Below are positions 7,914 to 45,752 of a DNA stretch of 45,988 nt, piece after piece (position 1 is the first letter of the stretch; every line of letters starts with the position of its first letter). The notes below the pieces were generated by a model. The model was not told the DNA's origin, searched no databases, and saw nothing but the letters and a program-made list of their open reading frames with translations. The DNA lies in contig JALEOD010000047.1 in NCBI GenBank assembly GCA_022767345.1, positions 1 through 45,988 on the forward strand, written 5' to 3'. The translations under genes were made by a program, and so were the position numbers. The DNA is from Emergencia sp. (GTDB lineage: Bacteria; Bacillota; Clostridia; Peptostreptococcales; Anaerovoracaceae).

Positions 7914-8615
7914 TTATTGGGAAATGACCTTGGCCGGGTCACAGAGTTTACCGTTTTTCAAAAGCTCAAAATGCAGATGGGCTTTGTCCATGGATTCGTA
8001 CAATGCGGATTTTCCAATATTGCTGATGACCTGCCCTTTTTTGACGGTGTCGCCTTTCTCGCAAAGTTTGTCTGTTGCCAGATTGCAGTAGCGGGAAATG
8101 TAGCCGCCTTTGTGGGTGATTTCGATGGTAATGCCGTAGGCATCATCGGTATAGACATCCGTAATCGTGCCGTCTGCTACAGCTTTTACGCCGGAACCCT
8201 GGGGCGCCTCAAAATCAATCCCTGGATGGGTCATGTACTGGTCTAAGGTCAGGTTGTAAATCACCATATCCATGGAATATTCTTTGGAAATCTTTGCTGT
8301 CGACATGTCCATGGGACTTGCAAAGGTTGTTTTTCCTTTCGTCTGTTTCTGGCTGTCGACGGTAGGAATCTCTGAAGCGGTTTCTTCTGCATCCTCATCT
8401 TCACCGGATATTTCTTCCGTAGGGGAATCAGTCTGCTTTTCCGGCTGCGGCTTTGTCGGAGTTTCTGTCGCTGCCGGCACGTCACCTGCACTTTTTGTAA
8501 TCTTGTCTATGCTGGACTTTATGGTAAAAATCGAAACGAGAGCAATGAGACAGAAACAAAGCATTAAAACCGCGGCAACTTTGTCTTTTCCTTTTTTCTT
8601 TTCTGCTTGGCGCAT
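7914..8615 (-). CDS. Membrane-anchored M23 peptidase-fold protein, SpoIIQ-like
   Basis: This 233-residue protein has one N-terminal membrane anchor (about residues 12-33), an acidic Thr/Pro/Glu-rich linker and a C-terminal LytM/M23 domain. The metal ligands of active M23 enzymes appear present: HPGID (H and D) and HLHFE. The lead-in YNLTLDQYMTHPGIDF resembles clostridial SpoIIQ, the forespore protein of the SpoIIQ-SpoIIIAH engulfment channel, in which the zinc site is also kept. The start at 8615 is set by GGAGGTGAAG; an upstream-extended frame has no support. Generic M23 endopeptidase is the alternative, since the partner spoIIIAH is not in view. Confidence 0.75.
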   Translation of the reverse strand: MRQAEKKKGKDKVAAVLMLCFCLIALVSIFTIKSSIDKITKSAGDVPAATETPTKPQPEKQTDSPTEEISGEDEDAEETASEIPTVDSQKQTKGKTTFASPMDMSTAKISKEYSMDMVIYNLTLDQYMTHPGIDFEAPQGSGVKAVADGTITDVYTDDAYGITIEITHKGGYISRYCNLATDKLCEKGDTVKKGQVISNIGKSALYESMDKAHLHFELLKNGKLCDPAKVISQ

Positions 8616-9699: not shown

Positions 9700-10449
9700 A
9701 TGAAACTGATTTCGTGGAATGTCAACGGGCTGCGTGCCTGTCTTGGAAAAGGCTTTGTGGAGTCGATGAAGGCTCTTGAGCCTGATTTTATCTGCATTCA
9801 GGAAACGAAGATGCAGCAGGGGCAGGCGGAAGTAGACCTGCCTGACTATCTGGAATTTTACAGCAGCGCTGAGAAAAAGGGGTATTCCGGCACGGCAATT
9901 TTTGCAAAGGAACAGCCCCAGTCGGTACAGATTAATTTCGGCAAACATACAGATGAGGGAAGAGCCGTCATTTTGGAATACGAAAAGTTTTTTCTCGTCA
10001 ATGTGTATGTGCCTAACGCCCAGGATCAGCTGAAGAGAATCGACTACCGCATGGAGTGGGAGGATGATTTTCGCGGGTTTGTGCGCAAGCTCGATGAGAA
10101 GAAACCGGTTATCATCTGCGGTGATATGAATGTTGCCAAAGAGGAAATTGACCTGAAAAATCCGAAGACCAACAGAGGCAATGCGGGATTTTCTGACCAG
10201 GAGAGGGATAAAATGCGCCAGCTGCAGGCAGCGGGCTTTGTGGATACTTTCCGTTATCTGTATCCCGATGCGGAAGGAATATACAGCTGGTGGTCCTATC
10301 GTTTCAACGCCCGCAAGAACAACGCGGGGTGGAGAATTGACTATTTTCTCGTCAGTGAGCGCATCGCGGATAAAATTATCGACGCAAAGATTCATACGGA
10401 TATCTTTGGCAGCGATCACTGTCCGGTGGAACTTGAGATTGCGCTGTAA
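9700..10449 (+). CDS. xth: Exodeoxyribonuclease III (AP endonuclease)
   Basis: This 249-residue Mg-dependent nuclease of the ExoIII/ExoA type repairs abasic sites. The motif set is complete: SWNVNGLRA, ICIQETK, GYSGTAIFAK, VYVPNAQ, CGDMNVA, WRIDYFLVS and SDHCPVEL. The start is the ATG at 9700 with AAAGGAG nine bases ahead; a TTG one codon upstream is an unlikely start. The gene is close behind psuG in the same orientation. Confidence 0.95.
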   Translation: MKLISWNVNGLRACLGKGFVESMKALEPDFICIQETKMQQGQAEVDLPDYLEFYSSAEKKGYSGTAIFAKEQPQSVQINFGKHTDEGRAVILEYEKFFLVNVYVPNAQDQLKRIDYRMEWEDDFRGFVRKLDEKKPVIICGDMNVAKEEIDLKNPKTNRGNAGFSDQERDKMRQLQAAGFVDTFRYLYPDAEGIYSWWSYRFNARKNNAGWRIDYFLVSERIADKIIDAKIHTDIFGSDHCPVELEIAL

Positions 10450-10466
10450 AAGGGTTTTGAAAGATG

Positions 10467-10495
10467 TTGACGTACAGAATTCTGTACGTTATAAT
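10467..10495 (+). promoter_or_regulatory. SigA promoter of the toxin-antitoxin pair
   Basis: TTGACG (10467-10472), a 17-base spacer and TATAAT (10490-10495). The entire spacer lies inside the operator palindrome. Confidence 0.85.
10470..10489 (+). promoter_or_regulatory. Perfect 20-base palindromic operator for YefM-YoeB
   Basis: ACGTACAGAATTCTGTACGT is its own reverse complement and fills the gap between -35 and -10. It holds two TGTAC/GTACA cores, the motif known for YefM operators, so autorepression by the antitoxin-toxin complex is very likely. Confidence 0.8.
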
Positions 10496-10520
10496 GGGAT
10501 TAGAAGGAGGTGGGAAAGTC

Positions 10521-10784
10521 ATGATAGCGACAAATTATACGAGCGTCAGAAACAACCTGAAGGATTATATGGATCAGGTAATTCAGGACTTTGAAACTGT
10601 AATTGTAACGCGTAAAAAAGATGAGAATGTTGTGATGATTTCTGAGAAAGCATATAACAACCTGTTGGAGAATGCCTATCTTTTAAGCGATAAAGAGAAT
10701 TTTGACTGGCTGATGGAATCTAAGCAGCAGTATGAAAGAGGAGAACTCATTTCACAGCCGTTCCCGGAGGAAGCAGATGAATAG
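10521..10784 (+). CDS. yefM: YefM/Phd-family antitoxin
   Basis: This 87-residue protein binds the operator through its N-terminal Phd/YefM fold (MIATNYTSVRNNLKDYMDQV) and neutralises the toxin with a disordered acidic C-terminal tail (EEADE). The strand TVIVTRKKDENVVMIS is the family core. The start is assigned to 10521 because AGAAGGAGGTGG precedes it and the N-terminus matches the family; an upstream ATG in frame falls within the promoter region. The stop overlaps the toxin start by eight bases, giving coupled translation. Confidence 0.92.
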   Translation: MIATNYTSVRNNLKDYMDQVIQDFETVIVTRKKDENVVMISEKAYNNLLENAYLLSDKENFDWLMESKQQYERGELISQPFPEEADE

Positions 10785-11037
10785 ACTGCTTACTTCTAAT
10801 GGCTGGCAGGATTACGTTTACTGGCAGAAAGAGGATCGAAAAACCCTAAAAAAGATTAATTCTCTACTTGAGGATATCGCAAGAAATGGAAATGTAGGAA
10901 TCGGAAAGCCGGAGCCGTTAGTCGGTAACTTAAATGGATTCTGGAGCAGGAGAATTGATGAGAAAAATAGACTCGTCTATAAGATTGAGAATGAAAATAT
11001 TATCGTATTATCCTGCAGATATCACTATACAAAATAA
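10777..11037 (+). CDS. yoeB: YoeB-family mRNA interferase toxin
   Basis: This 86-residue RelE-superfamily ribonuclease cleaves mRNA in the ribosomal A site when free. Typical YoeB sequence runs throughout: NGWQDYVYWQKEDRKTLKKI, GIGKPEPL, GFWSRRIDEKNRLVYKI and the catalytic C-terminus SCRYHY. All the usual catalytic side chains (E, R, H near the end and the terminal Y) appear present, so it is probably active. The GGAGGAAG within the antitoxin end serves as ribosome binding site. Confidence 0.93.
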   Translation: MNRLLTSNGWQDYVYWQKEDRKTLKKINSLLEDIARNGNVGIGKPEPLVGNLNGFWSRRIDEKNRLVYKIENENIIVLSCRYHYTK

Positions 11038-11044
11038 AATATAA

Positions 11045-11085
11045 AACAGCCCGTATACTTGTCATCCCACGCGGGCTGTTTTTTT
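11045..11085. terminator. Terminator between yoeB and the MATE gene, probably bidirectional
   Basis: AACAGCCCG pairs with CGGGCTGTT (11072-11080), followed by TTTTT on the plus strand. On the minus strand the stem is followed by TTTATATTTT, so it can serve both converging genes. Confidence 0.8.
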
Positions 11086-11175
11086 GCTGTTATTCCACCT
11101 GAATTTCAAGCTGTTTGACACAGCTTGTTTCGCTAGTCATTCAGCAGATCGCGCTGCAGTAGCTGTACAGGCAGA

Positions 11176-12597
11176 TCAGTGCGTCTGCTCTCCGGTCAGA
11201 TTCTGCAGCCAGACACCCTTTTTTACGAGGACGAAGCCGATGGCGCATTTAATCAGATCCAGCGAGTGGTCGATGAGGAAGACCAGCACCACCGGAAGGC
11301 TCGTAAAGCGAACCATGATGGTAACCGCCGGAATGGTGCAGATCCATAAAAACATGCTGTCGAAGAGGAATGTGATAATTGTTTTTCCGCCGGAACGCAG
11401 GGTAAAGTAGGACGCGTTGATAAAGCCGAACAGCGGCGCGGACAGTCCCTGAATCTGAATAAACCGCATGGCGATATGCTGAATTTCCGGGGCAGTGTTG
11501 TATATCTGCGGAAACAGAGGCGCGATGATGATGAGCAGAATGCCGGTAATGACACTGCAGAACATGGAAAAGGCGATGAGCTGATTATCTTCTTCGCGGG
11601 CTTTTTCCAGTTCTCCTGCGCCCAGTAGCTGACCTACGATGATGCCCACAGAGCCGCCCAGAGAAGCAAAGACCACATTGGTGACATTGCTCAGTGTGTT
11701 GGCGATATTTTCTGCGGCGACCACATCCAGACCCAGCATGGAATAGCACTGTGCCAGGAACGCCAATGCCAGAGACCAAAGCAGTTCGTTGAAGAACAGC
11801 GGGGTAGCGACTCGCAGGAGCTGTTTGACAAGACGTGCCGGCACGTAAAAACTGCGATAAAGATCCTTGATAAATGGCAGCTGATCCGTATGCCTGTGTG
11901 TCCATATGACGATGATGGCAAGTTCTACAAATCGAGACAGCACTGTGGCGATGGCGGCGCCTTCTACGCCCAGAGCCGGTGCGCCGAATTTTCCGAAGAT
12001 CAGAATATAATTGAATACCAGGTCGACAAGAACGGCGATGATGCCGCTGATCATAGGTACAATGGTTCGTCCTGTTTCGCGGAGGGTACTGGAATAAACC
12101 TGCGACATGGCGCTGGGCAGCATGCCGATCAGCATAATCAGCAGGTAGTTTCTTCCGTGGGTCAAAGTGGCGGAAAGGTCGCCGTGACTTTCTCCCTGAT
12201 GAAGAAAGGCTTCGATGAGGGGATTGCCGAAAGGAATCAGAATCAATGCGGCAAGAAGAGCCAAAACCACGCCGCAGAGGATTTTAAACCGCATGGTATA
12301 GCGGAGTCCTTCGTTATTTTTGCTGCCGAAAAACTGAGCGCCCAGAATACCCGCACCGGCAACGGCACCGAACACGGCCATATTGAAGACGAGAATCAGC
12401 TGATTGGCGATGGAAACACCGGACATCTGCTCCGTACCCACCTGACCGACCATGATGTTATCCAGCATATTGACAAAATTGGTAATGCCGTTCTGCAGCA
12501 TAATAGGAACGGCAATGAGAAGCACTTTCTTGTAAAAGGCTCTGTCACCGATGAGTTTCAGCCGCTTTGGACGGTTGGTATCTTGCAATTGATTCAT
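11176..12597 (-). CDS. MATE-family multidrug/cation efflux transporter
   Basis: This 473-residue polytopic membrane protein has about twelve predicted membrane helices in two homologous halves, the size and layout of MATE exporters that couple drug efflux to Na+ or H+. The first half shows VLLIAVPIMLQNGITNFVNMLDNIMVGQVG, where the N-terminal helix-1 block and the MVGQ turn are typical. The second half repeats the pattern with RVATPLFFNELLWSLAL and VGIIVGQLLGAGE. The start at 12597 follows GAGAGGAGG on the minus strand. It is divergent from the phosphoesterase gene. Substrate unknown. Confidence 0.9.
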   Translation of the reverse strand: MNQLQDTNRPKRLKLIGDRAFYKKVLLIAVPIMLQNGITNFVNMLDNIMVGQVGTEQMSGVSIANQLILVFNMAVFGAVAGAGILGAQFFGSKNNEGLRYTMRFKILCGVVLALLAALILIPFGNPLIEAFLHQGESHGDLSATLTHGRNYLLIMLIGMLPSAMSQVYSSTLRETGRTIVPMISGIIAVLVDLVFNYILIFGKFGAPALGVEGAAIATVLSRFVELAIIVIWTHRHTDQLPFIKDLYRSFYVPARLVKQLLRVATPLFFNELLWSLALAFLAQCYSMLGLDVVAAENIANTLSNVTNVVFASLGGSVGIIVGQLLGAGELEKAREEDNQLIAFSMFCSVITGILLIIIAPLFPQIYNTAPEIQHIAMRFIQIQGLSAPLFGFINASYFTLRSGGKTIITFLFDSMFLWICTIPAVTIMVRFTSLPVVLVFLIDHSLDLIKCAIGFVLVKKGVWLQNLTGEQTH

Positions 12598-20776: not shown

Positions 20777-21060
20777 GCTTGCTTAAGGCGATGAAGTAGG
20801 AAGTTGCGGAGCTATCCGGTAATTTCTACGGAGAATTGTTCCCACCAGATGGGGGCGAAGGTGTTCGCCGACTTTTGCTTTGTGCGAAAAATAAAGAAAC
20901 GCACGGAGCCGTGTGCAAAGTAAGCGATTCCACCGCACACGTTACAGAAGTGGGCATTTGACTGGGTTTTGCGCAGGTTCGCGAAGCACAGGACATCGGT
21001 CAGAAAAGAACCCCTGTACAAGCATAGCGAAAACAGTACAAAAAATTTTAGGAGGAAAAA
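20777..21060 (+). ncRNA. Long structured 5' leader of rpsJ
   Basis: No gene fits between the promoter and rpsJ. The leader can form several stems: GGCGAA/TTCGCC (about 20857-20872), GTGTGC/GCACAC (about 20912-20940), and an outer TGAC/GTCA pair enclosing the last domain (about 20960-21002). No T-tract follows a stem, so attenuation is not obvious. A ribosomal-protein autoregulatory leader (L4 or another cluster protein) is the natural idea, but I could not match a named class. Confidence 0.5.
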
Positions 21061-36790: not shown

Positions 36791-37678
36791 TTAGTAGGCT
36801 TTGCTGTATTTAAGGTAGTACTCCTGCGCTTTCTCTTCGCTCAGAGAGAAGTACTTTTGCAGTTTGGCGAGAATCTGCGCCTGGGTCTTTCCTTCTTCCA
36901 GATTATCTGAAATCAAAGCGAGAATGCCTTGTTCTCTGCCTTCTCTCACAGCAATACTCCGTTCGGTTGCACGGTCGTGTTTTGCCATCTCTTCATGCCA
37001 TAAAAGAACTTCCAGGACTTCATCGTCTGTAACATTTTTGTATACCTGATCGGACATGTGAATCGCCTCCTCGTCAGTTTCTAAGAGTTTCGCGACATAG
37101 TCTTCTTTCTGGTCATCGCCGACATATTTCAGATAGGTGCAGAACTGTTCCAGCGGGGTCATCAGGCAGGGAGCCTTATCCTGCAGTTTGCCCAGCTCCA
37201 GAAAGTGAATTTCCAGTCTGTCTGTCAAGGCGTAACCGTATGTCTCCTCTGCCATGATGAATCGGGTATGAAAATCAGGAATATTTCTGAACTGTATACC
37301 ATTGACAAAGGAGATGACTACGTTTTTCTTCATTTTATCATAGTTTTCCCCGGAATCCAATGACGAATTTGCCATGCGGCAGCCGTACAGCAAGGTACGG
37401 TTTCCAAAGTCCTCCTGTACTTTATTCTGCATCTCTACGTTAAACTGCTCCCCGGCAAGAGTTTTCGCACGGATATCCATAATAGTGCCTTTATCGCCGG
37501 GCTTAAAGCCTTTATGTACACTGTTCAGGACAGTAACCTCGGTGATTGGATCGGCTTTGCGGTCCAGAACCAGATTCAGCAGCGCGATGAGAGCCCGGCG
37601 GGATGCCTCTGTGTCGGAAGCATAAACGTAGTGAAAGACCAGATCATCGGTCAGGCGCAATTGTAATTTTTGTTTCAT
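36791..37678 (-). CDS. Rpn-family nuclease (PD-(D/E)XK, formerly 'putative transposase')
   Basis: This 295-residue protein belongs to the recombination-promoting nuclease (Rpn)/PDDEXK_2 family. The opening LTDDLVFHYVYASDTEASRR, the DIRAKTLAGEQFNVEMQ block (catalytic D, then ExQ) and NRTLLYGCRMANS are the family core. The rest contains a helical C-terminus with REGREQGILALISDNLEEGK, a motif common in these proteins. Studied members cut DNA and promote RecA-independent recombination; many copies per genome are usual in clostridia. AAAGGGGAC precedes the ATG on the minus strand. It converges on the ribosomal cluster terminator. Confidence 0.85.
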   Translation of the reverse strand: MKQKLQLRLTDDLVFHYVYASDTEASRRALIALLNLVLDRKADPITEVTVLNSVHKGFKPGDKGTIMDIRAKTLAGEQFNVEMQNKVQEDFGNRTLLYGCRMANSSLDSGENYDKMKKNVVISFVNGIQFRNIPDFHTRFIMAEETYGYALTDRLEIHFLELGKLQDKAPCLMTPLEQFCTYLKYVGDDQKEDYVAKLLETDEEAIHMSDQVYKNVTDDEVLEVLLWHEEMAKHDRATERSIAVREGREQGILALISDNLEEGKTQAQILAKLQKYFSLSEEKAQEYYLKYSKAY

Positions 37679-37888: not shown

Positions 37889-37940
37889 GTCAAGTTATTT
37901 TAGAGGTTTTTGTGTCAAGCGTTATTTTAGAGGTTTTTGT
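37889..37940 (+). repeat. Tandem direct repeat ahead of the riboswitch promoter
   Basis: GTTATTTTAGAGGTTTTTGT occurs at 37894-37913 and exactly again at 37921-37940, each preceded by GTCAA or GTCAAGC. The second copy runs into the -35 box. It may be a duplicated regulatory site or a scar of a mobile-element end. Confidence 0.8.
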
Positions 37941-37968
37941 TGACAGAGATGGAATACGGTGATATACT
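37940..37968 (+). promoter_or_regulatory. SigA promoter of cobalamin riboswitch 1
   Basis: TTGACA (37940-37945), a 17-base spacer and TATACT (37963-37968). Confidence 0.85.
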
Positions 37969-38175: not shown

Positions 38176-38224
38176 TTGGCTGACGAAGGATCAGTAAGAA
38201 ACAAGAGAGTTGGCAGGAATATGG

Positions 38225-38253
38225 CTGCATCGTGGTTGCGATGCAGTTTTTTG
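38225..38253 (+). terminator. Riboswitch 1 expression-platform terminator
   Basis: CTGCATCG (38225-38232), a TGGTTG loop and CGATGCAG (38239-38246), followed by TTTTTT. Confidence 0.9.
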
Positions 38254-38436
38254 ATTGCATAAAAGGAAAGACTAACTATTAAAAGTCAAGTCCCAAAATG
38301 ATATTTTTTGAATAAAGTACAGAAATGTATTTTAGATATACTTTGAACTCAGTTAGAGTTCCTTGAACCTTGAAAACTGCATGACAAAAAGAGCATCGTG
38401 ATAGGTGCTCAAAAAGGAGTATTGAATTAGAATTCA

Positions 38437-39612
38437 TTAAGCTGCTTTGATGTATTGCTGCTTTGTTTTTTCAAGATGATAAATCACTCGAACCAGCTTT
38501 TTTACAGCATGTGATATGGCAACATTGTAATGCTTACTTTCCGCTCGTTTCTTAGCGAGATAGGCTGAAAATGTCGGATCCCAGTGGCAGACATACTTGG
38601 CTGCATTGTACAGAGCATATCGAAGGTATCTGGAACCACGTTTTTCCATATGTGAGTATGCACCATTCAGTTGCCCAGATTGATATGTTGATGGCGAAAA
38701 GCCAGCGTAGGCTAAGATTTTATCAGGAGAATCAAAACGATTGAAATCACCAATCTCGGCAATAATCATGGCTCCCATGCGATAATTAATTCCGGGAATG
38801 CTAAGAATTGGAGAGTTGATATCATCCATAATGATTTTGATCTGATTTTCGATTTCATCAATCTCTGAATCAAGTTCTTGAATGAGCTTGATGGTGTGCT
38901 TTAATTCAAGAGATTTGGCTGGCATATTTGAGCCGATAGAAGCTCTTGCAGCTTCTCTGAAAGTAATGGCAGTATCTTTACCATATCGACCTTTAGAGGC
39001 TTCTGAAAGAAGATTTGTAAGTCTGGTAAGATGTGCACTGGCTACATGTTTGGCACCGGGAAATTCAGAGAGCATTGCATAAACGGATGCCATATGAAGT
39101 GTTGGCACAAGTTTTTCTAATTCAGGGAATAAAATACAGACAAGTCTTGAAACGGAAGTTTTCAGCTTGGCACGTTCTTTCACTTTATCAAAACGATAAC
39201 GGGTTAATGACTTTAGCTCCTCGTTGTGGTAAGATATGTCTGAGTAGGACTTTAAGTTCACATCAGACATGAGCATGGAAGCAATCGTGCGGGCATCTAC
39301 CTTATCCGTTTTCGTCTGTCTAAGGCTTAGACTTTTTCTGTACAGATTTATATGTAACGGATTGATAACATAGGCGAGCAAACCTTTATCAATGAGATAG
39401 CCAAGAAGATTGTAACTATAGTGTCCAGTGGCTTCCAGTCCTACTTTTACTTTTGTTACATCATTCATAACAGATAGAATCTTTTGATAAAGTTCATTAA
39501 AATCATCTAAGTTGTTGGTGATGGTAAATGCTTTAAACAGCACTTCTCCATCCGAGTTGGTGATAAAGCAATCATGCTTGTCCTTAGCAACATCAATTCC
39601 TACGTAAATCAT
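38437..39612 (-). CDS. IS110-family transposase (DEDD, bridge-RNA guided type)
   Basis: This 391-residue recombinase has an N-terminal RuvC-like DEDD domain: GIDVAKDKHD (first Asp), VGLEATGHY (Glu) and TKTDKVDARTIA (Asp pair). The C-terminal Transposase_20 domain follows, with ILSIPGINYRMGAMIIAEIG and GFSPSTYQSGQLNGAYSHME, where the conserved nucleophilic serine lies. The frame is uninterrupted and AAAGGAGA precedes the ATG, so it looks active. IS110 enzymes use an RNA from their own noncoding end to choose donor and target sites. Confidence 0.93.
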   Translation of the reverse strand: MIYVGIDVAKDKHDCFITNSDGEVLFKAFTITNNLDDFNELYQKILSVMNDVTKVKVGLEATGHYSYNLLGYLIDKGLLAYVINPLHINLYRKSLSLRQTKTDKVDARTIASMLMSDVNLKSYSDISYHNEELKSLTRYRFDKVKERAKLKTSVSRLVCILFPELEKLVPTLHMASVYAMLSEFPGAKHVASAHLTRLTNLLSEASKGRYGKDTAITFREAARASIGSNMPAKSLELKHTIKLIQELDSEIDEIENQIKIIMDDINSPILSIPGINYRMGAMIIAEIGDFNRFDSPDKILAYAGFSPSTYQSGQLNGAYSHMEKRGSRYLRYALYNAAKYVCHWDPTFSAYLAKKRAESKHYNVAISHAVKKLVRVIYHLEKTKQQYIKAA

Positions 39613-39639
39613 AAAAATCTCCTTTGAAATGTATTTGAT

Positions 39640-39800
39640 ACTGTTTTAGAACCACAGGATGCTCCTTGCGATTGTAACCTCGTTCTAAATAAACCGTCAT
39701 GCGGTATCTAACTGATTAACAAATGAACAAAGAGACTGTGGTTGGAGCCTTTCCTAAACCATCAAGTGGTAGGAGTGATAAACCAATCCACAGTATCTTA
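39640..39800 (-). ncRNA. Candidate bridge RNA of the IS110 element
   Basis: Upstream of the transposase the minus strand can fold into two internal-loop stems. One uses plus-strand 39735-39745 (ACTGTGGTTGG) with 39783-39794 (CCAA T CCACAGT) and encloses a 37-base loop. The second uses AGAAC..AGG (39648-39658) with CCT..GTTCT (39678-39686). A small ACCG/CGGT hairpin (39693-39705) lies between. Two-loop architecture matches known bridge RNAs (target-binding and donor-binding loops). The exact ends are not visible. Confidence 0.5.
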
Positions 39801-39911
39801 TATATCATAGTCGAACCTACAGAAGAGGTAAAGAAAAGACTATGATTTAATAGTTAAAAGACCTTGGAGAGGGTCTCTAAAAACTACTACTATATAATAC
39901 GAGGAAAGATA

Positions 39912-40487
39912 GTGAACGTAAATTGGTTTAAAAACCCGGATCATGTTGTATATGCCGACGCGCAGGAGTTTGTTGATAACTTCGCTAAAGAAACGGGAAT
40001 CAGCGATTTAAAAAAGAAAATCGAGGATTTTGAGGCAAATCCGGAGCCCGATGGTGTGATTCTGAAAGGACGGAAGAGAACTTCCATCAAGCTTTTTATC
40101 CCGGACATGGTCTTTGATGAGCATATTGATATGGGGGAGAATGTCTGGGTGTATATGGGCGAGAACTATGAGTGCTACTGTCTGTATAATATTAGCGATC
40201 GTGGCTTTTTTCCTGAAACCGAGAATTTTAAGTTTTTTTCACATCGGGAATGCGAATATTTCCCGTGCCATGAAACAAAAGAGACGGAAACATTTAACTG
40301 TTTGTTCTGCTATTGTCCTCTCTATGCCATGGGCAGAGACTGCGGTGGCAATTACTACTATACCCCGGATGGCGTAAAAGACTGCAGCGGCTGTTTGGTA
40401 CCCCATAGAAAGGATAATTTTGATTATATGATGGCGCGCCTTGCCAAATTTCATAGGAACTTGCAGTTGGCAGAAAAGGAAAGTTAA
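39912..40487 (+). CDS. Protein with Cys-rich small domain, B12-associated
   Basis: This is a 191-residue cytoplasmic protein. Residues about 1-115 are of unknown fold. The C-terminal part, from HRECEYFPCHE through FNCLFCYCPLYAMGRDCGGN to KDCSGCLVPH, is the 'cysteine-rich small domain' with about ten closely spaced cysteines, probably a metal or Fe-S site. From memory this domain is found beside or fused to cobalamin-biosynthesis enzymes such as CobD-type decarboxylases. The start is the GTG at 39912, with GAGGAAAG just before it; the frame opens further upstream only with TTG. Before the IS110 insertion it would have been the gene directly under riboswitch 1. Confidence 0.75.
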   Translation: MNVNWFKNPDHVVYADAQEFVDNFAKETGISDLKKKIEDFEANPEPDGVILKGRKRTSIKLFIPDMVFDEHIDMGENVWVYMGENYECYCLYNISDRGFFPETENFKFFSHRECEYFPCHETKETETFNCLFCYCPLYAMGRDCGGNYYYTPDGVKDCSGCLVPHRKDNFDYMMARLAKFHRNLQLAEKES

Positions 40488-40491
40488 AAAG

Positions 40492-40520
40492 CTGAAAATT
40501 AAATAGAGTTCTTTTATAAT
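40492..40520 (+). promoter_or_regulatory. Promoter of cobalamin riboswitch 2
   Basis: CTGAAA (40492-40497), a 17-base spacer and TATAAT (40515-40520), directly after the Cys-rich gene. Confidence 0.6.
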
Positions 40521-40527
40521 GTGGTCA

Positions 40528-40665
40528 CGAAGGGTTGATATCGTTCTCTTTGAAGGATATCAAACAGCGGACGTGTCAAATGACAAGCCGGTGAGAATCC
40601 GGCACAGTCTTACCTCTACTGTATTCGGTTCATGCCGTAAGTCAGGATTGTCAGCCGCATTGTAG
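40528..40665 (+). promoter_or_regulatory. Cobalamin riboswitch 2 (divergent core)
   Basis: A perfect TTGATATC/GATATCAA stem (40535-40542 with 40556-40563) is followed by GCCGGTGAGAATCCGGC (40587-40603), a core reading CTTACCTCTACTGTA where the usual form is CCCGCCACTGTA, and the B12 box AAGTCAGGATTGTCAGCC (40639-40656). The order and spacing fit a cobalamin aptamer with a variant core. A long terminator hairpin follows, so it should also be an OFF switch. Confidence 0.82.
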
Positions 40666-40681
40666 GTTCAGCATCGAGGTG

Positions 40682-40785
40682 GAATGCTCTATCAGCTGCG
40701 ATTCTCCGGTTAAAGAAAAGGAGAGGTGTTTTTGATGTGTAAAAGAGCATCTGTCGCAGCTTATAAAGGAGCATTCTTTTTGTTT
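40682..40785 (+). terminator. Riboswitch 2 expression-platform terminator
   Basis: GAATGCTC (40682-40689) pairs with GAGCATTC (40769-40776), which precedes TTTTTGTTTG. Inside, AGCTGCGA (40694-40701) pairs with TCGCAGCT (40754-40761), and TCTCC/GGAGA forms an inner stem. The hairpin is unusually long. Confidence 0.8.
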
Positions 40786-40907
40786 GTGCGATGTGGAAAG
40801 GAGGAATGTCTGCTGGACAGAGATTAATGTTGACATAAATCAAATACTATGAATCAAAAGAGAAAGGAGCGAGAGATATATTTTATAAGTATATCAAATA
40901 AGAAATT

Positions 40908-43900
40908 ATGAGAAGAGAAATTTTAAAGAAGAAAATTGCATTACTTCTCGTCTGCATGATGGTGTTCTCGCTGTTTGGCACGAATCTAGCCTTTGCAGAA
41001 GACCAGGCAGCAAACATAGAAGGAAGCGTAAAGCAGATTGCTTCCGCTGCTGATTTTCCGACCGAGATTGCAGCGGGAGAAACCTATGAACTGGCAGCGG
41101 ATATCACGCTAAGTGCAGAACAGCAGATTACTACGCTGGCAGGAACGCTGGACGGCAAAGGTCATACCATTACGCTGAGTGGTAAAGCGCTGGCGGACAC
41201 GATAGGAGAAACAGGAATCGTTCAGAATTTGGGTGTCACGGGGAATTTGCCGACAGATTATACTGCAGCATATGCGATGCATTTTAAGGGAGTGATTCAA
41301 AACTGTTTTTCTAAAGTTGCAACGACAGGACTCACGGAAATTAGCGGGTTTGTAGCAGATATACAGGGTGGAACTATTCAAAACAGCTGGTTTTCTGGAA
41401 ATGAAGGTTTTGGAGCGGCTTTTGTATACCAGGGTGCTGAAGGAACTTTAAATAACCTGATTTGTCAAAATTCTGGATATGGCGGAATATACGCCGGAAC
41501 TAATGATTTAATGATAAATAATGTTAAAAAAATCGGTGATGAAGTTTCGTCGTGGAATGAGGCAATTGCAATTCTCAATACGGACCGCCCGGACACTGGC
41601 TACAAATGGAAAATGGGAACGAGAGAATATCCTGTATTAATTGAAGATTCTGGGACCGAAGAACCTGAAACTGTTAATAAAACCGCATTGGAAAAAACCA
41701 TTACGGCAGCCGAAAGCAAAACGGAAGCGGATTATACCCAGGACAGCTGGCAGGTATTTCAGACAGCTTTGTCTTCCGCACAGGAAATCAAATCAAAAGA
41801 TGACGCTACTCAGGCTGAAGTCGACGCAGCTGTATCTGCGCTACAGAAAGCTATAGACAGTTTACAAAAGATTAAGCCGCTAAAACCGGTGCAGATTCCA
41901 GATGACGCAATCAAAATCAGCACAGTATCAGATCTTGAATCAATCGGAACCGGAGAAGAAAAGTATTATGTTTTAGAAAATGATATTACCATAAAACAAT
42001 CTGACTGGTATTTTGCTATCAATGAATTTCAGGGTGTTTTTGATGGTAAAGGCTATACTATAACCTTTGAAAAAAGTGGTGGACTATTTGGAGGTGTTGG
42101 AACAGACGGTATCGTACAGAATGTACATTTTACAGGGACAGTCTCAGGTAATGGTCCATTGGGTCAGACTATCTCCGGCGCAGTGATAAACTGCTATTCC
42201 GACACAGAAGAAAGTAATTCCGCCGGCTTTGCAAATAAGCTGGACGGCGGCGTTCTTGCTAACTGCTATTCAACCAGTGCAGCGAAAAACGGAGCTATTG
42301 TCAATCTTTATGGCGAAAATACAGATGGAAATACATATACCGGCACTTTCTACAACACTTATTGGCGAAGCGACCTGAAAATGCCTTCCATTTCCGCAGG
42401 AGATTTAAAGAAAGGTTCTGGGGCGAAATCGGAAGCAGAAATGCAATCCAAACTTTTCGTTGACCTTCTCAACACCAATAGAGGTGAATATGGCACATCC
42501 TGGGGATTGAATAAAGAAACAGGTTATCCATATTTTGGAGAAGACCAGTCAGAGACACTGCCGGAGTCTCAATACCCGATCGTTTTTACGGAAATAGGAA
42601 AAAATCCAATTCAGGATGAAAATCAGGCATTGAGAGTTTTCGTTGGCAGCAGCGGCTCTTTTTCCCTGGCAGGTGCTCCGGAAAAGGAAATTACTTGGGA
42701 ACTGAAAGATGCAAGTCCGGAGGGATGTATGACTTTGGACGGCGCGACTTTGCGTGCAGACAAGGAAGGCTCTGCAGTTCTCACAGCAAGCGCTATAAAC
42801 ACACAAGGAGAGAAAGAAATCGTAGCGGCTGCGACCATAACAGCAGTTACAAGGCAGCTGGAGTCAATTACACTTACCATCAGCGGAGATGAGAATAACA
42901 AATATATAAAGCCGACCGATGACGGAAAGTACGAAATCGACGGTTCCGCCTATGCAAAGATAAACATATCAGAAAAGTACGAAGGCGATGATACTGTATA
43001 TACCGGAAATATCAGAGACTACAGTATTACCTCTTCTGACGAAAGCAAGGCGCTGCCGCCAATGGGATCAGAAGTGCAGTTCAAAGAACCGGGCACGGCA
43101 GTCATGACCGTAACCTCTAAAAAGAACGCTGCGGTTTTTGCAAAAGTGGAATTGACTTCTACCTATGTGGCGGTTACTGCAGTAAAGCCGGGCATCAGCG
43201 GAACCCATATGATTCACGGCAGAAATGCCAACGACTGGGAAAGCTCTCCGGAGCGGTTTAATCCGGAATATCTGGGTGTAGATATCCAGCCGGCCAACGC
43301 CAGCTACAAAGACCGGGAATATGTAACCATTACAAGCTCCGATGAGAACATCGGCGTGTACCACAATCTGGCATATATCCCTGTAGGCGCAGGTACTGTG
43401 ACTTATACAGCAACTGTTAGGGATCCGCAGGGCGCTGAAGTATCCGGCAGTTCTACGGTTACCTATGCTTACAAAAATCCGCTGAAGGCACTTTCCGTGG
43501 ACGGAAAGGATTTTACACTGAAAGCAAATGAGGCGAAAACATTGCCGCTGACGTTTACAGGCGAAAAGGATAACGATGGCTGGAGCATTACAGATCCTGT
43601 GATAGACTGGAGCTACAGCGAAGAAGGAATCGCAGAAATTCATCGTAAACAATCAAAAGCTTACAAAAAAGCTGATGAGAAGGCGCCGGATTACACGTTT
43701 TATGTACTGGATACCGAATATGTCCTGACCGGCATCAAAGAAGGCACCGTTACAGTGACCGGAACACCCCGTGACAAGACGCATAACCTGAAGCCGATCA
43801 CCTTTACCGTGACTGTTTCAGGTTCAGAGGCGCTGCCGGAAATCGACATTCCGGCAACGATAGAGCAGGGTATGAAAGACGCCATCAGTTACATTCAGCT

Positions 43901-45752
43901 GAATCATACAGATGGATATACCTATAACAATAACGACTGGGCAGTGCAGGCACTGATTTCCGCAGGAAAAACGCCGACGCAGGCACAGCTGGACAGCTAC
44001 TATGCCAGCGTGGAAAATACCGTAAAGGCATGGAGCGAAAATCAGAAACCGACGGATATTGCGCGTGTAGTACTGGCGCTTGCTGCCATGAAAAAAGATG
44101 TAACCAATGTGGGCGGCAAAAACCTGGCAGCGATGATTTACAATCATCCGGATTTAGACGCTGGTTCCAACGAGCTGGCATGGGCTTTAATTGCGCTGGA
44201 CGCATCGAAGAGTGATGTGCCGCAGGATGCAACGTGGTCAAAAAATGCGATGATAAAAGCGTTGCTGGAGTTCCAAAACAGTGACGGCGGATTTGCTTTA
44301 AGTAAAACCGAGACAGACAGCAGCGTTGATATCACAGCTATGACCCTACAGGCGCTTGCTCCTTATGAGAATACAAATGACAATGCTAAAAAAGCCATTG
44401 AAGTGGGACTGGACTTTCTGAAAAGCAAGCTTTCCAGCGGCATCAACCCGGGCTATGGAACCTGCGAGGCAGAGGCACAGGTCATCTTAACTTTGGCAGT
44501 ATTGAAGAAAGATGTTACAGCTGCAGGCTTTGGAGATGTATACAGAAACCTGTTCTCCCATTTGGAAGAAAACTATAAAAATGCAACCGGTGGATATAAG
44601 CATCAGGCAAATGACGCAGTCAGCCAGGAGATGTCTACCGTGCAGGTACTGCAGGCGTATGACGCATATAATCGGTTCTTGAATAAGCAGTCATCCTATT
44701 GGGATTTCGGCAACGGAACGGTGATACCGGGTGAGGAAACACAGGCAGAGGATGTCATTGCTGCTATCGCAAAGATTGCAGATACTTCAAAGCTCACTCT
44801 GAGTGACGAAGAGACCGTGAAAGCCGTTCGCGCTTTATATAATGCTCTTTCTGAGGAAGAAAAGGCAAAAGTAGATGAAGCTAATCTGGCAAAACTGACA
44901 GCAGCTGAAACAAAAATTGCGGAGCTGAAGGCGCAGTCAAAGGAAATAACGGTTCAGTTTACCCTTCTGGGAGACAAAAAACACGACAGTGATGCGGACA
45001 AGGAAGTCCACAACCTGGAATCCGGCAATCTTGAAACCTGGATTGCGACAGAATCCATTACTGTGGAGGCTGGAGCCAGTGTCAGAACGGTATTGGAGAA
45101 GGCGCTGAAAGCACATGGCTACAAAGCGACCTATACAAACGGCGGAGACTATGTATCGGCGATTACTACCCCTGACGGGTTTACTCTTTCAGAATTTGAT
45201 AACGGGAAGAATTCCGGCTGGAAATACAATGTCAACGGCAGCTATCCGGACAAAGCCCTTACAGCATACAAGGTAAGCAATGGAGAAAACATCATCTGGT
45301 GCTATACCGATAATTACAAAAAGGATGCTGGCTATGTGCCGGAAGACCCAGGCGATACAGATATCGACGATCCTGATACGCCGCTGGATCCGGGAACCGA
45401 AGCCGTAAAGAGCATGGTATCTTCCCTGAAGCTGACAGCGCGTTCTGCAAGAACCAGCAAGAAAAACGTAAAAGTTACAATTACGACAGATAAAGCGACG
45501 ACTTCAGCAGTTAAAGAGCTGAAAGAAATGGGATACACCGTAAAATACACCTATTTCCGTTCTACGAAAAAAGCGTCCGGCTACAAGGCGATGCTGACGA
45601 AGAAGACGAAAACCTATACCAATACTATTGGTAAAAAAGGAAAAATGTATTACTATAAAGCCCAGATTAGAGTTTATGACAAAGACGGAAAACTGGCTGC
45701 GAAAACTATGCTGAAACAGTGCAAATATGCGAACAGAATCTGGAAAAAGTAA
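40908..45752 (+). CDS. Secreted multidomain protein with transcobalamin-like C-terminal half
   Basis: This 1614-residue exported protein has a signal peptide cut near AFA (residue 30). About 35-245 and 330-545 are two beta-helix/GLUG-like regions (LDGKGHTITLSGK, FDGKGYTITFEKSGGLFGGV), separated by a FIVAR-like helical module (255-320). About 548-985 are Ig-like beta domains. About 985-1265 is an alpha/alpha-toroid of the squalene-cyclase/prenyltransferase type (NNDWAVQALISAGK, FQNSDGGFALSKTE). About 1275-1345 is helical linker. About 1348-1470 is DUF4430 (SGWKYNVNGSYPD, NGENIIWCYT). A C-terminal beta module (1502-1614) may bind the wall. The alpha/alpha-toroid plus DUF4430 order is that of animal intrinsic factor and transcobalamin, and a cobalamin riboswitch controls the gene. 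There is no LPxTG or membrane tail. Confidence 0.85.
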   Translation: MRREILKKKIALLLVCMMVFSLFGTNLAFAEDQAANIEGSVKQIASAADFPTEIAAGETYELAADITLSAEQQITTLAGTLDGKGHTITLSGKALADTIGETGIVQNLGVTGNLPTDYTAAYAMHFKGVIQNCFSKVATTGLTEISGFVADIQGGTIQNSWFSGNEGFGAAFVYQGAEGTLNNLICQNSGYGGIYAGTNDLMINNVKKIGDEVSSWNEAIAILNTDRPDTGYKWKMGTREYPVLIEDSGTEEPETVNKTALEKTITAAESKTEADYTQDSWQVFQTALSSAQEIKSKDDATQAEVDAAVSALQKAIDSLQKIKPLKPVQIPDDAIKISTVSDLESIGTGEEKYYVLENDITIKQSDWYFAINEFQGVFDGKGYTITFEKSGGLFGGVGTDGIVQNVHFTGTVSGNGPLGQTISGAVINCYSDTEESNSAGFANKLDGGVLANCYSTSAAKNGAIVNLYGENTDGNTYTGTFYNTYWRSDLKMPSISAGDLKKGSGAKSEAEMQSKLFVDLLNTNRGEYGTSWGLNKETGYPYFGEDQSETLPESQYPIVFTEIGKNPIQDENQALRVFVGSSGSFSLAGAPEKEITWELKDASPEGCMTLDGATLRADKEGSAVLTASAINTQGEKEIVAAATITAVTRQLESITLTISGDENNKYIKPTDDGKYEIDGSAYAKINISEKYEGDDTVYTGNIRDYSITSSDESKALPPMGSEVQFKEPGTAVMTVTSKKNAAVFAKVELTSTYVAVTAVKPGISGTHMIHGRNANDWESSPERFNPEYLGVDIQPANASYKDREYVTITSSDENIGVYHNLAYIPVGAGTVTYTATVRDPQGAEVSGSSTVTYAYKNPLKALSVDGKDFTLKANEAKTLPLTFTGEKDNDGWSITDPVIDWSYSEEGIAEIHRKQSKAYKKADEKAPDYTFYVLDTEYVLTGIKEGTVTVTGTPRDKTHNLKPITFTVTVSGSEALPEIDIPATIEQGMKDAISYIQLNHTDGYTYNNNDWAVQALISAGKTPTQAQLDSYYASVENTVKAWSENQKPTDIARVVLALAAMKKDVTNVGGKNLAAMIYNHPDLDAGSNELAWALIALDASKSDVPQDATWSKNAMIKALLEFQNSDGGFALSKTETDSSVDITAMTLQALAPYENTNDNAKKAIEVGLDFLKSKLSSGINPGYGTCEAEAQVILTLAVLKKDVTAAGFGDVYRNLFSHLEENYKNATGGYKHQANDAVSQEMSTVQVLQAYDAYNRFLNKQSSYWDFGNGTVIPGEETQAEDVIAAIAKIADTSKLTLSDEETVKAVRALYNALSEEEKAKVDEANLAKLTAAETKIAELKAQSKEITVQFTLLGDKKHDSDADKEVHNLESGNLETWIATESITVEAGASVRTVLEKALKAHGYKATYTNGGDYVSAITTPDGFTLSEFDNGKNSGWKYNVNGSYPDKALTAYKVSNGENIIWCYTDNYKKDAGYVPEDPGDTDIDDPDTPLDPGTEAVKSMVSSLKLTARSARTSKKNVKVTITTDKATTSAVKELKEMGYTVKYTYFRSTKKASGYKAMLTKKTKTYTNTIGKKGKMYYYKAQIRVYDKDGKLAAKTMLKQCKYANRIWKK

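Follow-up and report, generated by a model that had tools for sequence, protein, structure and literature searches.

A predicted transcobalamin-like exported protein linked to cobalamin riboswitches in an Emergencia genome

The window analyzed here, the entire 45,988-base contig C25 (JALEOD010000047.1) of a 2.6 Mb draft genome of Emergencia sp. (GCA_022767345.1), carries near its end a gene for a 1614-residue exported protein (40908–45752) that follows a cobalamin riboswitch; features of the window lie on the + strand unless stated otherwise. The question raised by this locus is whether the protein captures vitamin B12 outside the cell, and whether it is built like the animal B12 carriers transcobalamin (TC), intrinsic factor, and haptocorrin. 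Very probably, it is an extracellular, transcobalamin-like protein that would bind corrinoids and feed an energy-coupling factor (ECF) importer of the CbrT type, in a giant and probably wall-associated version. We base this reading on a match of the predicted two-domain fold, on linkage to cobalamin riboswitches, and on homologue operons that encode ECF importers with CbrT-like S-components; from these we infer the corrinoid ligand, the closing mechanism, and the hand-off. A first-pass annotation of the same DNA had read the protein as one that captures cobalamin outside the cell in the manner of the animal carriers, and is right in its essentials.

In the protein, a signal peptide and unclassified N-terminal regions are followed by a FIVAR domain, a long middle part, a toroid, a DUF4430 domain, and a basic C-terminus. 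The toroid, linker, and DUF4430 segment, which makes up ~30% of the length, was modeled with AlphaFold2 from an alignment of 119 rows, in which the window was joined by related segments of named genome contigs, giving a mean pLDDT of 91.5 and a pTM of 0.80. The model places 12 helices in residues 982–1258 (43851–44681), where Foldseek and residue conservation also support an alpha6/alpha6 toroid, the alpha domain, and then a helical linker of four predicted helices, one of them short (residues 1279–1343, 44742–44936), and a beta domain (residues 1346–1467, 44943–45308) that Pfam, Foldseek, and hhalign assign to DUF4430. The Pfam match itself, PF14478, spans residues 1389–1467 (E 9.3e-14), and the toroid has no Pfam match at E ≤ 1. 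InterPro, we take it, already relates DUF4430 to transcobalamin.

When the window model was searched against the PDB with Foldseek, ranks 1–15 of 719 went exclusively to transcobalamin, haptocorrin, and intrinsic factor (E 3.4e-10 to 4.7e-8, alignments of 511–535 columns), and rank 16 was a prenyltransferase (E 6.3e-4). The model of L026, a homologue with a shorter linker (pLDDT 94, pTM 0.91), again retrieved the three carriers at ranks 1–15, here of 815 (E 1.4e-12 to 7.3e-9); the two models share most of their alignment rows and are thus not independent evidence. The isolated TC beta domain fits the L026 model with a TM-score by target (TMt) of 0.83 and a root-mean-square deviation (rmsd) of 1.9 Å, and the beta domain of the window model matches 5no0 with a TMt of 0.72. 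At the profile level, hhalign aligned the beta domain with human TC over 79 columns (27% identity, E 8.4e-6 as a single comparison, probability 83%), and with a two-domain profile it aligned the beta domain alone and not the toroid. With phmmer, no PDB match at E ≤ 1 was found for the whole 1614-residue protein or for a 455-residue DUF4430 protein, and the eukaryotic cobalamin-binding family PF01122 (Cobalamin_bind) did not match the 1614-residue protein at E ≤ 1 and matched 2 of 121 related bacterial segments at E ≤ 0.01 (best 6e-5). The first-pass annotation had called the fold an alpha/alpha toroid at residues 985–1265 followed by DUF4430 at 1348–1470, and had likened the pair to transcobalamin and intrinsic factor; the model and the Foldseek ranking bear out both points, with domain limits correct to within a few residues. 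Its GLUG-like modules, by contrast, find no support in Pfam at E ≤ 1, and its Ig-like modules come down to one sub-threshold match, to HYR (E 0.41).

Conserved residues point to where a ligand might sit. Among the toroid rows, W1011 is found in 79/79, T1049 in 75/80, and Q1246 in 80/80, and R1053, N1088, D1141, T1143, and E1187 are found in 73, 76, 79, 77, and 72 rows, respectively; the strictest positions lie at or near the start of the second helix in each pair. By motif reading, D1141 corresponds to Asp176 of TC, the consensus GGFxNSES to GHFGNVYS, and MATEQ to LMISQ (Gln273), and it is on this motif reading that the correspondence to D176, N224, S227, and Q273, presumably the contacts of the TC alpha domain, rests. 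Y1415, G1437, and W1438 of the beta domain do not vary in any of the 63 rows that cover them (63/63). By profile, Y1415 aligns with TC Tyr380 (full-length numbering), which is discussed among the residues at the B12 site by which TC and haptocorrin differ from intrinsic factor (PMC3331988). The 1614-residue protein itself keeps the family invariants W1011, T1049, R1053, N1088, D1141, Q1246, Y1415, and G1437–W1438.

The riboswitch directly upstream of the gene (riboswitch 2, 40515–40664) is short and was recognized with the Rfam cobalamin model at a laxer threshold (26.6 bits, E 4.5e-4 in 3.4 kb). A second model, R1, built from ten riboswitches of the same genome and used at E ≤ 0.01, matches it at 40566–40671 with 30.8 bits. 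The orthologous locus L025, from a metagenome-assembled genome named "Eubacterium sp." whose toroid is 84% identical at the protein level, has riboswitch 2 at the same place. There, window positions 40573–40675 are identical in 102 of 103 columns, against 64/92 (70%) for the preceding stretch and 194/233 (83%) for the stretch that follows up to the start codon. We accept riboswitch 2 as real because its core is conserved in L025 above its flanks; judging from this comparison, the core is under strong constraint. It is preceded by a promoter-like site (CTGAAA-17-TATAAT, 40492–40520, 10/12 matches in a pattern scan, weak alone) and followed by a long terminator-type hairpin ending in a U-tract (40681–40780). 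The hairpin was recognized by folding energy (−45.3 kcal/mol for 40670–40805, z −3.7, with 0/200 shuffles equally stable) and is not listed by the terminator pattern scan, which considers loops of 3–8 only. Given the promoter-like site before riboswitch 2 and the stable U-tract hairpin after it, control by transcription termination is likely.

Riboswitch 1, further upstream, is full-length (RF00174, 37979–38182, 97.3 bits, E 3.6e-23), with a promoter-like site before it (TTGACA-17-TATACT, 37940–37968, 11/12 matches; the scan is weak alone, since shuffled sequence averages 8.7 such sites and the region has 11) and a terminator-like hairpin after it (38223–38248, one of 3 such sites against 1.9 in shuffles). 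Its end lies 2.7 kb upstream of the 1614-residue gene, with an IS110 transposase gene (38437–39612, − strand; Pfam/NCBIfam) and a gene for a PF04071 cysteine-rich small domain (39864–40487, E 1.5e-26) in between. The stretch with IS110 (38254–39900) is absent from L025, so that 1.6 kb separates riboswitch 1 from the PF04071 gene in the window and the flanking matches lie 35 nt apart in L025. As similarity to L025 starts at 39901, the true start of the PF04071 gene may be further in. Since L025 has riboswitch 1 and the PF04071 gene adjacent, that gene was probably the original target of riboswitch 1; we therefore rejected riboswitch 1 as a direct control of the 1614-residue gene, which has riboswitch 2 of its own. 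The first-pass annotation had placed the gene behind a cobalamin riboswitch, which holds for the proximal one and not for the strong one. Riboswitch 1 may have lost its own gene, and the PF04071 protein apparently belongs to the cobalamin regulon.

The linkage extends to related loci. We collected the best 80 of 373 loci by similarity to a three-row toroid query that included the window; they are not a random sample, and at least two pairs among them (L025/L046 and L070/L098) come from one genome each. DUF4430 was detected with a hidden Markov model (HMM) from four domains of the Emergencia genome, ECF genes were detected with HMMs grown from proteins of its contig C59, and starts of open reading frames (ORFs) were set mechanically. 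The toroid and DUF4430 occur in the same or neighboring ORFs in 75 loci. R1 riboswitch matches were found in 45/80 loci, 58 of 61 on the strand of the gene (the 61 being 73 listed matches minus five weaker ones and seven in the window, L019, and L020), and in 36/80 loci one lies ≤600 nt from the start of a toroid/DUF4430 ORF. For 40 of the 80 loci (L050 left out), the source genomes, 38 in all, were scanned with the Rfam cobalamin model, which matches 36 of them; this count by genome is not mapped to loci. ECF-T is encoded on the same strand ≤5 kb from a toroid/DUF4430 ORF in 61/80 loci (≤1 kb in 55, median gap 1 nt), the full S, T, and A set is present in 54/80, and at least one of the two, riboswitch or ECF-T, is found in 69/80. 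The order giant toroid/DUF4430 protein, toroid protein, 190–300-residue DUF4430 protein, T, A, and S recurs in several of the 12 loci listed. ECF A and S are read in one frame in many loci (e.g., L026, 15495–17966; ~740–1064 residues among the S matches listed) and are separate in others (L045, L054, and the Emergencia genome).

We also started from DUF4430 rather than from the toroid. Among 61 family-level genomes, the Emergencia genome included, there were 116 DUF4430 matches in 45 genomes, and at least 65 of the 116 lie ≤10 kb from a cobalamin riboswitch, where placement at random predicts 4.6; the test used the first 150 riboswitch matches and stricter filters, and the expectation was computed from the same 150 with contig ends ignored. 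Among the matches listed, the riboswitch is upstream on the same strand in 58 pairs and downstream in 12, and at least one such pair occurs in 30 of the 38 genomes that have both DUF4430 and a riboswitch. In six order-level genomes, DUF4430 was found in 2/6, one of them the Emergencia genome, a sample too small to use. Both surveys favor the first-pass annotation, which homologues without a link to cobalamin genes or riboswitches would have refuted.

The S-components of these operons bear on the substrate. For all three examined (L019, which is on contig C59, L042, and L034), the best PDB match is 6FNP (E 1e-6, 1.9e-18, and 1.2e-9, respectively), and the next ECF S-component, 4hzu, reaches 0.0057 for the C59 protein and is absent at E ≤ 1 for the other two. 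6FNP is ECF-CbrT of Lactobacillus delbrueckii, which transports cobalamin and cobinamide (PMC5997447). The S-component of L054, a Lysinibacillus locus, has no ECF model among its NCBIfam matches.

The Emergencia genome holds six DUF4430 matches, eleven riboswitch matches (ten above the cut-off), and three toroids: contig C59 carries two standalone ones, and the third is the fused toroid of the window. Contig C59 (L019) carries, in order, a riboswitch, an 808-residue DUF4430 protein, a riboswitch, a 351-residue ORF, and ECF T, A, and S, followed by a toroid protein, two DUF4430 proteins, and a second toroid protein. One of the C59 toroids is encoded at 8611–9906 of L019, and one of the ORFs with a DUF4430 domain at 9908–11275. 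On contig C51 (L020), riboswitches precede a 1657-residue DUF4430 protein and a 178-residue protein with a weak DUF4430 match (Pfam E 0.1); also on L020, beside a riboswitch at 1569–1767 (−), an ORF at 1953–2993 (−) reads like a nitrogenase-component-type protein, an impression from reading. Contigs C59 and C51 start, from base 3, inside very similar copies of one gene, so the assembly probably broke at a repeat. Contig C38 (L021, 7867–8286) encodes a 139-residue DUF4430 protein with a lipobox by eye, possibly with another role; the contig has no cobalamin riboswitch match. The genome further encodes CbiC, CobS, and nine PF02310 matches, and the organism is therefore a probable heavy B12 user and a possible producer. 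For the same reason, we rejected B12 auxotrophy as the driver.

The export of the 1614-residue protein is suggested by residues 1–30 (40908–40997), which by eye form a Sec-type signal peptide ending in AFA. Reading of the sequence found no LPXTG motif. The last 124 residues (45378–45749) form a basic module (31 K+R, 7 D+E) that is shared with the 808-residue DUF4430 protein of C59 (58% identity over 306 columns, window residues 1332–1614, DUF4430 included) and that is probably the wall attachment. The FIVAR domain occupies residues 258–319 (41679–41864, Pfam E 3.1e-8).

Put together, these elements would suggest the following course. At low cellular cobalamin, riboswitch 2 would let transcription through the terminator, and the protein would be exported by its signal peptide and kept at the wall, with the basic module at its C-terminus as the probable anchor. 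From the fold and the conserved residues, the toroid and DUF4430 may then close on a corrinoid, one half binding first and the other after it, and the corrinoid would be passed to the S-component of the riboswitch-controlled ECF importer on C59. Release would be the hard step. The grip of human carriers on cobalamin is so tight that it takes proteolysis to free the ligand (PMC5997447). A split pair as on C59 could release its ligand more easily, and the giant fused proteins may act as stores at the surface.

Several observations weigh against a transcobalamin-like capture protein. TM-scores of the top 15 matches of the window model are moderate (0.41–0.52 by query), and the domain orientation differs from that of holo-TC in both ligand-free models (rmsd over the top 15 of 6.4–12.2 Å for the window and 18.6–19.8 Å for L026). 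The association of the TC alpha and beta domains needs cobalamin (PMC11107200), and their cobalamin-driven assembly is stated as a hypothesis in the introduction of PMC5599065; since the TC domains assemble on cobalamin, ligand-free models would not necessarily adopt the closed form. When PDB sequences were searched by profile, squalene/drimenyl-type cyclases came closest to the toroid (4.1e-17), and TC came up through the beta domain only (E 0.016 isolated, 0.23 for the full chain). The protein departs from the family consensus at 1062, 1139, 1154, 1188, and 1245, lacks the His of the TC alpha7/alpha8 loop, and has none of the TC disulfides, its two-domain segment containing only C1186 and C1465; the alpha domain has four disulfides in rat TC and three in bovine TC (PMC11107200). 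Conservation of D1141 is weak evidence and not B12-specific, because this residue also falls at the DxDD position of class II terpene cyclases. Among the linkages, riboswitch 2 scores under the Rfam gathering score (31.5), 35/80 loci have no riboswitch match, and 11/80 have neither a riboswitch nor ECF-T, five of the 11 on contigs <7 kb. No ECF gene is seen beside the 1614-residue gene because the contig stops there, 236 nt past the stop codon. The order of the domains within one protein also varies, with 32 cases of toroid then DUF4430 and 18 of the reverse; the split-gene form, with 54 toroid-then-DUF4430 ORF pairs in 53 loci, fits an alpha/beta assembly driven by cobalamin. Finally, the C59 S-component is an "ECF-type riboflavin transporter, S component" by Pfam, above the cut-off, and has matches, far under the cut-offs, to the NCBIfam models for riboflavin and folate; with CbiC and CobS, the organism may also make corrinoids itself.

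These points bear on four alternatives. The one that survives best, a possibility that we nevertheless consider rather unlikely, is that the protein captures a B12 precursor or another corrinoid, such as cobinamide or pseudo-B12, and not cobalamin itself. ECF-CbrT also transports cobinamide (PMC5997447), and with CobS the organism may finish precursors; on the other side stand the cobalamin family of the riboswitches and a TC fold that encloses a whole cobalamin. This alternative would refine the capture of corrinoids by a transcobalamin-like protein rather than contradict it. Improbable, in our view, is a general role as a wall adhesin or structural protein, expressed when B12 is limiting and resembling B12 proteins only in shared modules. 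Its length of 1614 residues, the FIVAR domain, the basic C-terminus, the small share of the two-domain segment, and the diverged consensus positions would suit such a role, but both domains keep the invariant or near-invariant family residues and the core of riboswitch 2 appears strongly constrained.

More remote still is an enzyme, in which an exported toroid related to terpene cyclases or prenyltransferases would be catalytic and DUF4430 would be a separate binding module. Toroid proteins presumably carry automatic names such as "prenyltransferase/squalene oxidase repeat". The nearest sequence profiles are indeed those of squalene-hopene and drimenyl diphosphate cyclases, Pfam Prenyltrans and SQHop_cyclase_C match 61/121 and 57/121 related segments (E ≤ 0.01), and D1141 sits at the DxDD position. 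The catalytic DxDD motif defines class II terpene cyclases; the window has S-V-D-I-T instead (1139–1143), in a protein that is exported. Fold E-values favor the TC family over prenyltransferases by four to six orders of magnitude, and the 80 loci are tied to cobalamin riboswitches and ECF genes, with no isoprenoid gene family recurrent among the 30 largest neighbor clusters (most of them unannotated). Just as remote is a set of importers for another vitamin such as riboflavin, served by the toroid/DUF4430 proteins. The names that Pfam and NCBIfam give to the S-component models speak for it; we rejected a riboflavin or folate importer, since cobalamin riboswitches precede the operons and the closest solved S-component is CbrT.

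We would go further only tentatively: it is possible, if on balance somewhat doubtful, that Gram-positive bacteria have a complete transcobalamin system, in which fused or two-gene alpha and beta halves clamp cobalamin, present it to a CbrT-type ECF importer, and share descent with the animal carriers. ECF transporters would then have an extracellular binding partner, and the two-domain, cobalamin-driven assembly of TC would be an inheritance from once separate proteins. With a riboswitch-controlled partner resembling transcobalamin, found here in both Clostridia and Bacilli, B12 uptake would gain a step of capture, and this could matter for how gut bacteria and the carriers of the host compete for B12. 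The release of a clamped ligand to an ABC importer and the origin of the animal B12 carriers would become testable; the Emergencia genome already encodes alpha and beta halves separately, and most steps could be tested with small recombinant proteins.

Two further features of the window touch none of these subjects. An Rpn-family PD-(D/E)XK recombination-promoting nuclease (36791–37678) lies between a ribosomal operon and the B12 region, and an S10-Clostridia ribosomal protein leader (RF03136) lies at 20783–20858.

Among known systems, our search, which covered the open-access literature in the excerpts available and neither preprints nor subscription journals, yielded no account in which a transcobalamin-like protein of bacteria is paired with an ECF importer. 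In ECF-CbrT, whose cluster includes a gene named cbrS, the membrane S-component itself binds the substrate, and the available part of the source describes no TC-like extracellular partner (PMC5997447). The beta half has already been tied to cobalamin ECF transport by annotation: the DUF4430 protein LRHMDP2_2713 (LGG_02295) of L. rhamnosus is called an "additional lipoprotein component of putative cobalamin ECF transporter", in a source whose excerpts mention neither a toroid partner nor a TC-like model (PMC9963975), and DUF4430 has been placed at the C-terminus of TCN proteins (PMC4350170). RUMGNA_00854 of Ruminococcus gnavus (3u7z) resembles the DUF4430 domain (TMt 0.64 for the window model and 0.74 for L026) and differs in being a putative metal-binding protein of 96–97 residues with the beta domain only.

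The first-pass annotation had also proposed a counterpart of Bacteroides BtuG, which stands for the role and not for homology: we rejected homology to BtuG, as no such family appeared among the Pfam or NCBIfam matches and the best fold matches are to TC. The folds of BtuG and BtuH differ from that of TC. BtuG, BtuH, and BtuJ likewise sit at the surface under riboswitch control and supply an importer with the B12 that they capture (PMC13398666, PMC8941943), but their setting is the outer membrane and BtuJ is a DUF4465 beta-jellyroll (PMC13398666).

The closest likeness is to the animal carriers (2bb5, 2pmv, and 4kki), the best fold matches, which share with the Emergencia protein an alpha6/alpha6 toroid followed by a DUF4430-type beta domain and a beta-domain Tyr at a position of the TC B12 site. 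Unlike them, the Emergencia segment is bacterial, embedded in a giant exported protein, and has a 65-residue helical linker, no TC disulfides, and no cobalt-binding His, and its relatives are often encoded by two genes or in reversed order. The animal carriers are linked to endocytosis, whereas the relatives of the 1614-residue protein, which would likewise bind a corrinoid, are linked to an ECF importer.

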